This document shows positions 4,840-59,330 of a stretch of 64,000 nucleotides of DNA, piece after piece. Source of the stretch: Arenibacter antarcticus. Its GTDB lineage: Bacteria > Bacteroidota > Bacteroidia > Flavobacteriales > Flavobacteriaceae. Numbering within the stretch: position 1 is the first letter of the stretch; each line of letters starts with the position of its first letter. A model generated the notes under the pieces. The model had not been told where the DNA came from. It saw nothing but the letters and a program-made list of their open reading frames with translations, and did no database searches. A program made the translations under genes and the position numbers. The DNA lies in assembly GCF_041320605.1 (NCBI RefSeq), contig NZ_CP166679.1, positions 3,954,001 through 4,018,000 on the forward strand. Direction: 5' to 3'.

Positions 4840-4851
4840 TATTTATTATTG

Positions 4852-7257
4852 ATGAACAAACATATTAAAAAGGTAGCGGTAATTGGCTCCGGCATCATGG
4901 GAAGCGGTATAGCATGCCACTTTGCCAATATTGGCGTAGAAGTATTATTGTTGGATATTGTACCAAGGGAACTTACTGAAAAAGAGAAAGCCAGTGGACT
5001 AACCTTAAAGGATAAGGTAGTGCGCAATAGATTGGTGAACGACTCCCTTATGGCGGCTCTTAAATCCAAGCCCTCCCCTATTTATCATCAAAAGTTTGCC
5101 CAGCGTATTAGCACCGGGAATCTTGAGGATGACATTGCAAAAGTTAGTGAGGTAGACTGGATCATTGAGGTGGTCGTAGAGCGCTTGGATGTAAAGAAAA
5201 TGGTGTTCGATAATTTGGAGAAATACAGAAAACCAGGGACTTTAATCACCTCTAATACTTCCGGTATTCCGATAAAATTTATGAGTGAAGGAAGAAGTGA
5301 GGATTTCCAGAAACATTTCTGTGGGACCCACTTTTTTAATCCTGCTAGATACTTAAAATTATTTGAAATTATCCCTGGACCAAAGACATCTCCGGAAGTC
5401 TTGGAATTCCTAAATGGATATGGTGAACAGTTTTTGGGTAAAACCTCGGTGGTAGCCAAGGATACCCCCGCTTTTATAGGAAACCGTGTGGGTATATTTG
5501 GGATACAAAGCCTATTCCATATGGTTAAGGAGATGGGACTTACCGTTGAAGAAGTTGATAAACTAACGGGACCAGTGATTGGAAGGCCAAAATCTGCCAC
5601 TTTCCGAACTGTGGATGTTGTGGGGCTAGATACCTTGGTGCATGTTGCCAATGGTATTAATGAGAACTGCCCAAGTGATGAACGACATGAGGTATTCCAA
5701 CTACCGAACTTCATCAATACCATGATGGAAAACAAGTGGTTGGGAAGTAAAACAGGACAAGGGTTTTACAAAAAGATAAAAAATGCAGATGGCTCCAGTG
5801 AGATAATGACCTTGGATCTAAATACTCTGGAGTATAGGGCCAATAAAAGAGCAAGTTTTGCCACTTTAGAGCTTACAAAAACTATAGATAAGGTAATGGA
5901 CCGATATAAGGTTCTGGTTGGAGGAAAAGATAAGGCCGGGGAATTTTACAGAAAAAGCTTCGCTGCCCTTTTTGCCTATGTATCCAACCGTATCCCAGAG
6001 ATATCCGACGATCTCTATAAAATTGATGATGCCATGAAGGCTGGTTTTGGATGGGAACACGGACCTTTTCAGATTTGGGATGCCATTGGGGTCCAAGCAG
6101 GAATGGAATTGATAGAGAAAGAAGGTTTGAAAGCTGCCCCATGGGTTTCGGAAATGTTTGCAACAGAAAATAAATCGTTTTACAGCGTTAAGGATGGAGC
6201 TACTTATTTTTACAACATCCCGACTAAAAAAATAGAGAAAATTCCAGGACAGGATGCCTTTATAATCTTGGATAACATTCGTAAGACCAAAGAGGTATTT
6301 AAAAACAGCGGTGTTGTTGTCGAGGATTTAGGAGATGGAATTTTAAATGTGGAATTCCAATCCAAGATGAATACCATTGGTGGCGATGTGCTGGCTGGGC
6401 TGAACAAGGCAATTGATTTGGCCGAAAAAGATTTTCAAGGTTTGGTCGTAGGTAACCAAGCTCCTAATTTCTCGGTTGGAGCCAATATTGGCATGATCTT
6501 TATGATGGCCGTAGAACAGGAATACGATGAGCTAAACATGGCCATTAAAATGTTCCAGGACACTATGATGCGTATGCGCTATTCTGCAATTCCAACTGTT
6601 TCGGCACCTCATGGGATGACTTTGGGTGGAGGATGCGAGCTTTCACTGCATGCAGACATGGTAGTTGCTGCGGCAGAAACCTATATTGGGCTTGTGGAAT
6701 TTGGTGTAGGTGTTATTCCAGGTGGTGGCGGCTCTAAAGAATTTGCCTTACGTGCCCAGGATACCTTTAAGAAAAATGATGTAGAGCTCAATGTTCTCCA
6801 AGAATATTTCCTCACTATAGGAATGGCTAAGGTTTCTACTTCTGCCTATGAAGCCTATGACTTGGGAATTTTACAACACGGTAAGGATATTGTTGTGGTC
6901 AATAAAGACCGACAAATAGCTACTGCCAAAGCGCATGCCAAGTTAATGGCCGAAGCCGGATATACCCAACCCATAAGGCGACAAGATATAAAAGTACTTG
7001 GAAAACAGGCACTTGGAATGTTCTTAGTAGGGACCGATGCCATGGAAGACAGTAATTACATAAGTGAACACGATAAAAAAATCGCCAATAAACTGGCCTA
7101 TGTTATGGCAGGGGGAGATTTATCTGAACCTACCCTGGTAACTGAACAGTATTTATTGGATTTGGAAAGGGAAGCCTTCCTGTCGCTTTGTACGGAAAGA
7201 AAAACCTTGGAAAGGATTCAGCATATGCTGAAGACTGGGAAGCCGTTGAGAAACTAA
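4852..7257 (+). CDS. 3-hydroxyacyl-CoA dehydrogenase/enoyl-CoA hydratase fusion
   Basis: 801-aa bifunctional beta-oxidation enzyme. The N-terminal dehydrogenase half begins with the NAD-binding GSGIMGSGIA (residues 12-21) and has GTHFFNPARYLKLFEI and the C-terminal dehydrogenase domain. The C-terminal hydratase/isomerase half has GMTLGGGCELSLHAD and GVGVIPGGGGSKEF, the oxyanion-hole and catalytic region. Domain order is the reverse of E. coli FadB. ATG at 4852 is preferred over TTG at 4849, which would add one residue. It follows marR by 12 bp; the thiolase is next but separated by an inserted small element. Confidence 0.92.
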   Translation: MNKHIKKVAVIGSGIMGSGIACHFANIGVEVLLLDIVPRELTEKEKASGLTLKDKVVRNRLVNDSLMAALKSKPSPIYHQKFAQRISTGNLEDDIAKVSEVDWIIEVVVERLDVKKMVFDNLEKYRKPGTLITSNTSGIPIKFMSEGRSEDFQKHFCGTHFFNPARYLKLFEIIPGPKTSPEVLEFLNGYGEQFLGKTSVVAKDTPAFIGNRVGIFGIQSLFHMVKEMGLTVEEVDKLTGPVIGRPKSATFRTVDVVGLDTLVHVANGINENCPSDERHEVFQLPNFINTMMENKWLGSKTGQGFYKKIKNADGSSEIMTLDLNTLEYRANKRASFATLELTKTIDKVMDRYKVLVGGKDKAGEFYRKSFAALFAYVSNRIPEISDDLYKIDDAMKAGFGWEHGPFQIWDAIGVQAGMELIEKEGLKAAPWVSEMFATENKSFYSVKDGATYFYNIPTKKIEKIPGQDAFIILDNIRKTKEVFKNSGVVVEDLGDGILNVEFQSKMNTIGGDVLAGLNKAIDLAEKDFQGLVVGNQAPNFSVGANIGMIFMMAVEQEYDELNMAIKMFQDTMMRMRYSAIPTVSAPHGMTLGGGCELSLHADMVVAAAETYIGLVEFGVGVIPGGGGSKEFALRAQDTFKKNDVELNVLQEYFLTIGMAKVSTSAYEAYDLGILQHGKDIVVVNKDRQIATAKAHAKLMAEAGYTQPIRRQDIKVLGKQALGMFLVGTDAMEDSNYISEHDKKIANKLAYVMAGGDLSEPTLVTEQYLLDLEREAFLSLCTERKTLERIQHMLKTGKPLRN

Positions 7258-7261
7258 TTAT

Positions 7262-7296
7262 AGTACAAAGTATTAAGTACCAAGTATTAAGTAAAT
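7262..7296 (+). repeat. Left heptamer array of the four-helix-bundle element
   Basis: Five tandem 7-bp units of consensus AGTAYNA (the last degenerate), starting 5 bp after the upstream stop codon. The same unit occurs in inverted orientation at the other end of the element. Confidence 0.75.
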
Positions 7297-7320
7297 GGTA
7301 AAGAGATATAATAAGATTGT

Positions 7321-7677
7321 ATGCATCGATTTGAAGAATTAATAATTTGGCAAAAAGCGATGAATATAACTGAAGAGGTATATCTCTTATCCGCGGAATT
7401 TCCAAAAGAAGAGAAATTTGGATTAAAGAGCCAAATTAGAAGAAGTGCAGTTTCAATTGCATCAAATATTGCTGAGGGTGCCGGAAGGAATACAAATGGT
7501 GAATTTAGAAATTTTCTAAGTATGGCAAGTGGGTCTTCCGATGAATTGTATACTCAATTATTACTGGCTTATCGATTAAAATTGGTTCAACAGGAACGCG
7601 TGAAAAATATACTAACCAATGTTAAGGAAGTACAAAAAATGAATTATGCATTGATAAAATCACTCAAACAACAATAA
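7321..7677 (+). CDS. Four-helix-bundle (S23/23S rRNA IVS-type) protein
   Basis: 118-aa helical protein of the family annotated as four helix bundle protein or 23S rRNA intervening-sequence protein. Typical features: an opening LIIWQKAMNI helix, the signature RRSAVSIASNIAEGAGR (residues 40-56) and helical hairpins after it. The family is related to accessory proteins of diversity-generating retroelements and is basic, suggesting nucleic-acid contact; its function is not known. It interrupts the beta-oxidation operon and is bracketed by inverted heptamer arrays. ATG at 7321 fits the family start. Confidence 0.85.
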   Translation: MHRFEELIIWQKAMNITEEVYLLSAEFPKEEKFGLKSQIRRSAVSIASNIAEGAGRNTNGEFRNFLSMASGSSDELYTQLLLAYRLKLVQQERVKNILTNVKEVQKMNYALIKSLKQQ

Positions 7678-7696
7678 CTAACAATCAATAATAACC

Positions 7697-7728
7697 TACT
7701 TGGTACTTTGTACTAGGTACTTAATACT
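7697..7728 (-). repeat. Right heptamer array (inverted)
   Basis: Four full 7-bp units plus part of a fifth of AGTAYNA type on the minus strand (TNRTACT on plus), ending 7 bp before the thiolase ATG. Inverted counterpart of the array at 7262-7296. Confidence 0.75.
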
Positions 7729-7735
7729 CACATTC

Positions 7736-8926
7736 ATGAAAACAGCATATATAGTAAAAGCATATAGAACGGCAGTAGGTAAAGCACCAAAAGGGGTTTT
7801 CCGTTTTAAACGTACAGATGAATTGGCAGCGGAAACCATAGCATATATGATGAAGGAGTTGCCTCAATTGGATAAAAAACGAATAGATGATGTTATCGTT
7901 GGAAACGCAATGCCGGAAGGTTCACAGGGGCTAAATATGGCGCGATTGATCTCCTTGATGGGATTGGATATCGTGGACGTTCCAGGAGTAACCGTTAACA
8001 GATTCTGCGCCTCTGGAATAGAAACCATAGGGGTGGCTACCGCAAAGATCCAAGCTGGCATGGCCGACTGTATCATTGCAGGAGGTGCGGAAAGTATGAG
8101 TGCCGTACCCATGACCGGGTATAAAACCGAGCTCAATTACGATTTGGCGAAATCGGGTCACGAAGATTACTACTGGGGTATGGGAAATACTGCAGAAGCG
8201 GTTGCCAAGCAATTTAAGGTATCTAGGGAAGATCAGGACGAATTTGCCTACCATTCTCATATGAAAGCCCTAAAGGCACAGGCAGAAGACCGTTTTCAAA
8301 GTCAGATCGTACCTATAGCTATTGAGCAGATATATGTGGATGAAAATGGAAAAAAAGCCACCAAAAATTATACCGTTACCAAAGATGAAGGTCCACGTAA
8401 GGGTACTAGTTTGGAAGCCTTGGCCAAACTACGTCCGGTGTTTGCTGCTGGAGGTAGCGTTACTGCAGGGAATTCTTCACAAATGAGCGATGGCGCAGCC
8501 TTTGTTATGGTGATGAGCGAAGAAATGGTTAAGGAATTAAACCTAGAGCCCATTGCCAGACTAGTAAATTACGCTGCAGCTGGGGTAGAACCACGGATTA
8601 TGGGAATTGGACCTGTAAAGGCCATTCCAAAAGCCCTTAAGCAAGCTGGATTGAAGCAAGAGGATGTAGAACTAATAGAGCTTAATGAAGCTTTTGCCTC
8701 GCAATCCATCGCAGTGATCAGAGAACTGAACCTTAATCCCGATATAGTAAATGTCAACGGAGGTGCAATAGCCTTAGGGCATCCATTAGGATGTACAGGC
8801 GCCAAGCTTTCCGTTCAATTATTCGACGAAATGCGAAAACGCAATATGAAGGGCAAGTATGGTATGGTCACCATGTGCGTTGGAACAGGTCAGGGAGCAG
8901 CAGGTATTTATGAGTTCCTGAACTAA
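7736..8926 (+). CDS. Acetyl-CoA acyltransferase (thiolase)
   Basis: 396-aa thiolase that cleaves 3-ketoacyl-CoA in the last step of beta-oxidation. Nucleophilic Cys91 lies in [10 protein letters not shown], the histidine in [16 protein letters not shown] and the second cysteine in [14 protein letters not shown] at 7736 is chosen because upstream in-frame codons from TTG 7700 lie inside the heptamer array and do not resemble thiolase; [16 protein letters not shown] is the normal N terminus. Acts with the upstream dehydrogenase/hydratase and the downstream acyl-CoA dehydrogenase. Confidence 0.93.
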
Positions 8927-59048: not shown

Positions 59049-59285
59049 ATGAGCGAACCAGTTAAAAAATTCTCCCCCATTGCAATAGCCATGGAGAAAG
59101 ACAAAAGATATTCTTGGTGTACTTGCGGCCATAGTAGCAGCCAACCATTGTGCGACGGATCTCACAGAGCGGAAAAAGCCACTCCTCCCCTAGCATATGT
59201 AGCTACAGAAGAAAAAACTGCCAATTTCTGCACTTGTAAACTTACTAAGAACCCTCCATTTTGTGATGGATCTCATAAAGGATAG
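59049..59285 (+). CDS. CDGSH iron-sulfur protein, two clusters
   Basis: 78-aa protein with two CDGSH units: WCTCGHSSSQPLCDGSH and FCTCKLTKNPPFCDGSHKG. Each CxCx...CDGSH set binds a [2Fe-2S] cluster through three cysteines and one histidine. Double-cluster proteins of this sort are likely electron-transfer or redox-sensing factors. 56 bp after the HGSNAT-like gene. Confidence 0.92.
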   Translation: MSEPVKKFSPIAIAMEKDKRYSWCTCGHSSSQPLCDGSHRAEKATPPLAYVATEEKTANFCTCKLTKNPPFCDGSHKG

Positions 59286-59288
59286 TGT

Positions 59289-59330
59289 TGAGAATTGAGT
59301 ACAAAGTATTGAGTAGTGAATAGTGAGATG
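59289..59330 (+). repeat. Solo heptamer array
   Basis: Six 7-bp units in register, most of form TGARTRN (TGAGTAC, TGAGTAG, TGAATAG and so on), starting 3 bp after the CDGSH stop codon. Similar in period and wording to the arrays flanking the four-helix-bundle gene at 7.3-7.7 kb, but without a gene. Confidence 0.65.

Follow-up and report, generated by a model that had tools for sequence, protein, structure and literature searches.

How a small gene framed by two inverted arrays of 7-nt units came to lie between two cistrons of a fad operon, and what these arrays do, are the questions raised by a locus in the 64,000-nucleotide stretch of the Arenibacter antarcticus genome analysed here (“the window”). 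A sequence-only reading of the window had described five AGTAYNA units beyond the stop codon of the upstream cistron, “four to five” inverted units before the downstream one, and one 118-aa S23/IVS-type gene in between, and this observation is real. The upstream cistron, presumably fadB-like as named in that reading (the start of its reading frame is as mechanically listed), ends 4 nt before the left arm, and the right arm ends 7 nt before the ATG of the thiolase gene (Table 1). The left arm does comprise five units (AGTACAA, AGTATTA, AGTACCA, AGTATTA and AGTAAAT), and the right arm, read on the opposite strand, also contains exactly five (AGTATTA, AGTACCT, AGTACAA, AGTACCA and AGTAGGT); the unit word, however, is rather AGTANNN, with seven of the ten units ending in A. 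The two arms are 84–88% complementary across 25 nt, which results in complementary ends around an ORF, as in the intervening sequences (IVSs) of rRNA genes. Runs of at least five AGNNNNN units are found at three places in the window—the two arms and one solo array, in whose vicinity neither an inverted partner nor an S23 gene was seen—while ten one-strand shuffles of the window yielded one such run in total.

Table 1. Features of the cassette and its surroundings (window coordinates).
Feature	Position	Strand	Basis
fadB-like multifunctional enzyme gene, upstream host cistron	4849..7257	+	listed ORF, stop TAA 7255-7257
Left arm: five AGTANNN heptamers, AG core on gene strand	7262..7296	+	motif scan
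S23/IVP four-helix-bundle gene, 118 aa, PF05635 / TIGR02436	7321..7677	+	ORF, profile matches and PDB relatives
Right arm: five AGTANNN heptamers	7694..7728	-	motif scan
Whole cassette, arm-gene-arm, 467 bp	7262..7728	+	empty junctions in relatives; junction shared with other cassette types
Thiolase (fadA-like) gene, downstream host cistron	7736..8926	+	ORF and comparison with relatives
Solo array of five AG heptamers where a reading frame ends; related dispersed array	59284..59318	+	motif scan

The family assignment of the encoded protein is borne out by its matches to PF05635 (23S_rRNA_IVP/S23; 131.4 bits, cut-off 33.8) and TIGR02436 (128.3 bits, cut-off 24). Two relatives in the PDB, 2gsc (E 2e-20) and 2rld (E 6e-6), are both structures of five chains, and the title of a 2006 paper by Lin et al. 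reportedly speaks of five four-helix bundles. No transposase family was found for the protein in Pfam or NCBIfam at E ≤ 1. The models DivGenRetAVD (4.9e-8; 33.2 bits, cut-off 80) and bAvd (2.7e-7; 31.5 bits, cut-off 40) match it below their cut-offs, indicating weak homology to the Avd proteins of diversity-generating retroelements; the likeness of Avd and PF05635 is noted in passages of one source (PMC10053308). By eye, the ORFs that adjoin the cassette are fad genes, with no recognisable reverse transcriptase among them.

PF05635, a domain termed functionally uncharacterised in a passage of a recent study (PMC11270868), is matched in 193 of the 247 sampled genomes of the window's phylum, Bacteroidota, in 75 of 80 genomes from the family of a Nodularia genome, and in 44 of 99 from the family of a Pseudoxanthomonas genome. 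The window's genome itself has five copies, two of which are broken by stops. Judged by eye, short-repeat arrays adjoin all five copies, with units that differ from copy to copy: AGTANNN in the window, AAAGTGA at L003, an AATGTA type at L004, CTTTAAA/AGGTTCA at L005, and an ATTCAA type at L002, whose arrays are of non-AG type within 260 nt and failed the test for AG runs.

If the cassette is an insertion, relatives should show the junction without it. The fadB–fadA junction was compared in 29 other genera of the family, which were the best-scoring of 149 genomes searched (one, L045, was not measurable). The two genes are 3–7 nt apart in 13 genera and 28–141 nt apart, without a full gene, in 11, and a gene-bearing cassette of 434–532 nt is present in four. 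Empty sites thus exist, as the sequence-only reading had anticipated, and the gene is not a constant companion of the junction. Taking the cassette out of the window leaves 11 nt between the two cistrons, in agreement with the operon spacing of about 12 bp that had been proposed; compared with the 3–7 nt in relatives, a target duplication is not readable at this site. By eye, an S23 gene is seen at the next junction, from fadA to the acyl-CoA dehydrogenase gene, in five of the 29 genera (L042, L048, L049, L056, L057), and in L048, L049, L055 and L058 the other fad junction holds a gene-less array element with the same unit as the gene-bearing cassette of that operon. Other short inverted-repeat intergenic elements, of the CCCCACC...GGGGTTAGGG type, were observed at the same fad junctions of other genera (L044, L057, L063).

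Within the genus, an insert is present at fadB–fadA in all 18 genomes, measuring 430–478 nt in 13 of them and 107–291 nt in the other five, which we read as remnants. Three S23 protein types occupy this junction: type A in the window's genome, and types B and C in others. Type C is 34–42% identical to the other two, the proteins within type B are 84–97% identical, and A and B share 51–53% identity, so that they are distinct but not unrelated. A clean filled/empty pair of close strains, with the cassette ending exactly at its arms, was not encountered among the genomes compared.

The generality of the array-gene-array layout was assessed in several samples. The first set, from the window's phylum, comprised 104 loci, in most cases the best-scoring one of a genome: five from the window's own genome, 29 further ones from the genus, and 70 from the list for the phylum (30 returned, 40 fetched); eight partial matches were dropped and the 96 near-full-length loci reduced to 48 representatives below 60% identity, one of which was left out of one test for runs of N. 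When each left arm was aligned with the reverse complement of the right arm, the mean score was 28.7 for true and 16.6 for mismatched partners. Pairing reached the 95th percentile of mismatched pairs in 35 of the 48 loci (13 fell below it) and the 99th in 23, and the true partner outscored all 47 others in 26, where about one was expected. At the 99th percentile, none of 56 shifted controls was found, and six of the 48 loci were found in direct instead of inverted orientation. The flanks also match themselves at a lag of 7 nt, with z > 3 in 53 of 96, compared with 35 at lag 14, 10 at lag 8, at most seven at every other lag, and 3 of 76 flanks at lag 7 in the shifted control.

The second set was drawn from 586 confirmed loci in named genomes of many phyla. 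It consisted of the best 80, among them loci from Proteobacteria, Cyanobacteria, Acidobacteria, Chloroflexi, Planctomycetes, Firmicutes and a Methanophagales archaeon bin, and three were dropped for short flanks. Among the 77 usable loci, lag 7 exceeded z = 3 in 119 of 154 flanks, pairing was at or above the 95th percentile in 67, and the true partner surpassed all others in 49. For a third set, 60 paralogues were chosen from 30 genomes of the second set, blind to their flanks; after removal of 10 duplicates and two loci with short flanks, 48 were usable. Lag 7 was found at z > 3 in 70 of their 96 flanks (lag 8 in 20), with pairing at or above the 95th percentile in 42 loci and the true partner ahead of all others in 36. 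In the families of the Nodularia genome (three of 29 loci dropped) and the Pseudoxanthomonas genome, the 7-nt period was present in 43 of 52 and 46 of 58 flanks, respectively, and pairing attained the 95th percentile in 17 of 26 and 16 of 29 loci; many of the 29 Pseudoxanthomonas-family loci have a unit type in common, so that mismatched pairs score higher. The layout thus recurs widely in these samples, each cassette having its own unit, matched between its two arms, in most of the sampled relatives. Since the sampled loci are best-scoring ones, decayed or array-less copies are under-represented. Inverted 7-bp arrays, which the sequence-only reading had proposed to look for at other four-helix-bundle genes, were thus found there (119 of 154 and 70 of 96 flanks at lag 7 versus 3 of 76 controls), and a gene family devoid of such arrays, which would have contradicted it, was not what we found: many members carry them.

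The composition of the units and their number were considered separately. In the first set, the mean proportion of units with an AG core was 0.80 (left) and 0.79 (right), against null values of 0.27 and 0.24, as calculated from the 33 arms on each side that passed the periodicity threshold. As a universal core, AG was weakened by the third set, where it is no longer dominant among arms with runs of at least four units (AG 24, GT 27, GG 24, TT 24). With the arms of 94 distinct sites pooled, AG runs of three, four, five, six and seven units numbered 24, 23, 35, 16 and 6, an excess at five (P 0.009), while the other-strand control gave 16, 5, 7 and 2 for three to six units. Across all 173 loci, related sites included, the excess at five had P 5e-8; in the third set (six runs of four, eight of five, two of six) it was not significant (P 0.13).

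A length measure independent of the core—the longest segment that matches itself at lag 7—peaks at 29–33 nt, which corresponds to five copies of a short core. At a penalty of -1, the third set gave 3, 29, 9 and 7 arms with four, five, six and seven copies (62 of 96 arms passing), the earlier distinct sites 30, 49 and 22 arms with four, five and six copies (146 of 188 passing), and all arms together 25, 79 and 30 (197 of 284 passing, with 87 failing the array test). Five remained the mode at a penalty of -0.7 in the third set (15 arms with five, 7 with six, 10 with seven, 10 with eight copies) and at -2 in the earlier distinct sites (34 with four, 35 with five), the peak being less sharp in both cases. 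Geometric lengths simulated at a penalty of -1 placed at most 24% of arms at five copies and 18–35% at four, to be compared with observed values of 47% and 5% in the third set (a comparison made at one penalty only) and 34% and 21% in the earlier sites. As this measure was devised after the AG-run result and its sharpness is penalty-dependent, it is supportive rather than confirmatory. In these samples, five core copies are the commonest array length, with a peak whose sharpness varies with the settings.

Several observations indicate that arms and gene belong together. At non-homologous sites, the likeness of units rises with the identity of the encoded proteins, from 0.266 (<40% identity) through 0.275 and 0.299 to 0.388 (60–70%, n = 82) and 0.562 (≥70%, n = 5), as evaluated for 119 of 173 loci, the other 54 having no AG unit that could be read. 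For proteins of less than 50% identity at different sites of one genus, unit likeness is 0.243 (n = 135), from which it follows that shared genome composition is not the cause there. Furthermore, among the genus loci fetched, three of seven multi-genome sites hold S23 types with identities down to 21–35% in flanks that are 75–97% identical. At the ffh–folD junction of L033 and L479, the flanks are 91–92% identical beside the junction and 84% farther out, while the S23 proteins share 23% identity and both arms differ too, which shows arms and gene to have been replaced together at this one junction. The left arm of the ffh–folD copy in the window's genome has, by eye, units of both kinds side by side—a single case, which looks like the arrival of one cassette within another's array.

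Both neighbours are at least 100 aa long at 74 of the 94 distinct sites, and these are oriented ++ at 52, -- at 10, +- at 8 and -+ at 4. The cassettes hence lie mostly between co-directional genes and in sense direction (52 of 62 co-directional cases), so that the host operon can transcribe them; of other adjacent ORF pairs in the loci, 39 of 57 are co-directional. This sense-strand bias (52 versus 10) would suit an RNA-level intervening sequence, in which the arms would pair in the transcript, the S23 gene would sit in the loop, and a double-strand RNase such as RNase III would cut the stem; the host would tolerate the insertion since the cistrons end up separated or trimmed. Compatible with this reading are the predicted fold of the window cassette, in which the arms close a long stem (z -3.9), and that of a 188-nt gene-less element (L425:293-481), a single very stable hairpin (z -7.6). 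The closest precedent is the 23S rRNA IVS with an S23p/IVP ORF, as known from Leptospira, Coxiella and others, which shares the protein family and the stem-forming inverted ends. According to passages on the Coxiella IVS, this element is of similar size (428 nt versus 467 bp for the window cassette), has a 28-bp stem, is excised by RNase III, and carries tandem GACAGAT heptamers before its ORF (PMC4990558); in CPR bacteria, S23 genes are described, in part of another report, as scattered over rRNA insertion sites (PMC11270868).

The window cassette differs from rRNA IVSs in residing in a protein-coding operon, between the fadB-like and thiolase genes and outside any rRNA gene, and in carrying at each end an array of five heptamers whose unit is particular to the cassette. 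None of 444 loci (up to 6 kb) complied with a rule of four 23S motifs, and an Rfam search with four loci returned four sub-threshold matches only (best E 0.19). Importantly, mismatches between the arms comprise 150 G-U versus 198 A-C pairs over 182 loci, related sites included, and 30 versus 38 over 35 loci. This lack of a G-U excess over A-C does not support a stem conserved on the coding strand as RNA, and the proposal that the arms fold by pairing in the mRNA is thereby narrowed: the stem can form and is a possible fold, but the mismatch counts speak against it as the conserved property. Moreover, a stem alone explains neither the 7-nt period nor the preferred five copies, and some arrays are solo. 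We therefore consider the RNA-level reading, which is the main rival, rather unlikely.

Arrays are also found apart from S23 genes. In 400 kb of the window's genome (20 stretches, L232–L251, three with S23 copies), 14 AGNNNNN runs of at least five units were detected, as against none in one shuffle; some overlap, leaving about 11 places, none of them at the three S23 copies. Several of the runs touch a gene end, one forms an inverted hairpin in an intergenic stretch, and the run at L246:10609-10781 is a long mixed array that separates two genes. In genome G586, the arms of an S23 cassette have a total of 97 matches elsewhere, of which 13 represent one gene-less element of about 188 bp, bounded by the inverted arrays and 99.5–100% identical between places. 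The surroundings of these places are unrelated, except for two with shared flanks. No target-site duplication was evident by eye around the element, and, in a search for an empty site, the upstream flank of one site was unmatched in four other genomes of the genus. Copies of the element (L425:293-481) that are 72–73% related are present in G586 and G614. Array-bounded derivatives without a gene thus exist, one of them in 13 near-identical copies in one genome. Another small repeat family of G586 (L438–L443), with ends AAGTAGGT..., has one AGGCAGG array inside.

Some multicopy cases proved to be the work of other elements. Genome G551 has seven near-identical copies of an S23 gene with heptamer arrays (L400–L406; six with one score, the seventh close, and L403 interrupted), which might have been taken for recent transposition of the cassette; by eye, however, the identity runs over 1.9 kb into an apparent transposase gene of ISL3-like type, and the copies are passengers. 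Likewise, the 550-bp pair L409 and L410 (2370-2919) of G586, which contains heptamer arrays and an S23 gene, has outer terminal inverted repeats (GGGAGC...) and duplications of 8–9 bp, pointing to another element's hand; L411 and L412 belong to a longer segmental duplication; and a pair in G611, with 840 nt in common and cut by a contig end, may or may not be of this kind.

The duplications in G551 and G586, together with the differing array lengths of the near relatives L029 and L030, would be expected if S23 genes and arrays were passengers of ordinary transposons and the arrays grew by slippage. At the window junction, however, the arms lie 4 and 7 nt from the neighbouring genes, leaving no room for the ends of another transposon, and slippage explains neither the matched inverted units nor the preference for five copies, nor the 188-bp element at 13 places; we regard this explanation as improbable. 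The arrays could also be autoregulatory and useful to the host, with the S23 pentamer binding the left array in the mRNA leader and repressing its own synthesis or regulating the downstream gene. The left array does directly precede the S23 gene, and TAACTGA heptamers near start codons have been proposed as translational sites in a passage on such repeats (PMC4679880). Yet autoregulation needs no inverted, matched right arm, and two of the five cassettes in the window's genome are broken, those in five of 18 genus genomes are shortened (107–291 nt), and some have been replaced by other types, which makes this the least probable of the alternatives.

We consider it somewhat more likely than not that the locus is a small mobile cassette, whose sole gene is of the S23/IVP type and which terminates on either side in an inverted array of about five 7-nt units that the cassette's own pentamer would read. 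The cassette nature is well supported; ring reading and the chemistry of transposition we infer. The first of these parts is in line with the earlier suggestion of a minimal mobile or parasitic unit, for which empty junctions, differing cassettes at the same junction, gene-less derivatives and arrays in many family members now speak. That the S23 protein recognises the 7-nt repeats, as had also been suggested, is plausible judging by comparisons of sequences: the two ends of a cassette carry matching units, more similar proteins go with more similar units, and arrays of five accompany a five-chain family. The match of five-copy arrays with a five-chain protein is also what suggests ring reading, in which the S23 homopentamer would grip an arm in single-stranded nucleic acid, each subunit holding one of the five units, and would so recognise both ends of its own cassette as well as the ends of gene-less relatives. 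A spacing of 7 nt does not fit the turn of a double helix; as to DNA or RNA as the ligand, the comparisons fit either. As S23 is without a known catalytic site, it would be an end-binding or annealing partner rather than a cutter, with host enzymes or a resident transposase possibly making the cuts, and new cassettes may land in arrays that are already present. In the window, the cassette is most readily understood as a parasite that the fad operon tolerates.

The proposed principle resembles that of TRAP, a ring that binds repeated triplets at eleven sites, in that the number of subunits would approximate that of evenly spaced short sites; TRAP is an unrelated protein, though, the sites here number five at 7 nt instead of eleven, and binding by S23 is a prediction. 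In REP/REPIN elements with their RAYT gene, short inverted repeats flank one gene and many gene-less copies exist. The gene of the S23 cassette, in contrast, is no transposase and its ends are tandem arrays, not palindromes. Unlike a classical IS element, the cassette has an ORF that belongs to PF05635 and matches no transposase family; its inverted ends take the form of arrays.

With five tandem, intergenic 7-nt units per arm, the window cassette has the makeup of the heptameric repeats catalogued as SSRs or STRRs. Passages of Rehm 2015 describe such repeats in Xanthomonas (GGGAATC) and Nostoc, many as convergent inverted pairs (70 and 75 cases) and close to the ORF that neighbours them on the 5' side, and treat them as G-quadruplexes; in the text available, “S23” and “helix bundle” do not occur (PMC4692102). 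At the S23 loci of the Pseudoxanthomonas genome's family, we found GGGAnTn-type arrays on both arms in 13 of 29 and on one arm in three more, corresponding to 29 of 58 arms versus 2 of 344 control stretches, which connects the published xanthomonad repeats with the S23 element. MacGregor 2015 reports intergenic TAACTGA arrays, patchy across phyla, from Beggiatoaceae, cyanobacteria and Bacteroidetes; in the portion of that text at hand, “S23” and “four helix bundle” are absent and an inverted cassette is not described (PMC4679880). A search of the open-access literature turned up no paper tying heptamer arrays to S23 genes outside rRNA.

A wider proposal is that S23/IVP cassettes constitute a bacteria-wide mobile class, whose ends would be a counting code of five units at 7-nt spacing, written in a private unit word and read by the encoded pentameric ring, and that they contribute to the excess of heptameric repeats that has been published and are the parent stock of both rRNA IVSs and the Avd of diversity-generating retroelements. 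This we put forward tentatively, considering it possible but doubtful. For annotators, S23 genes inside operons may be insertions rather than functional partners, as might apply to those in cas loci, one of which is placed between cmr3 and cmr2 in a passage on these loci (PMC3936711). Taken together, the findings suggest a widespread, little-described kind of mobile DNA cassette. Its matched five-heptamer address offers a concrete biochemical hypothesis for the PF05635 family, and S23 cassettes offer a source for the published heptameric repeats and would link rRNA IVSs to a much wider element.
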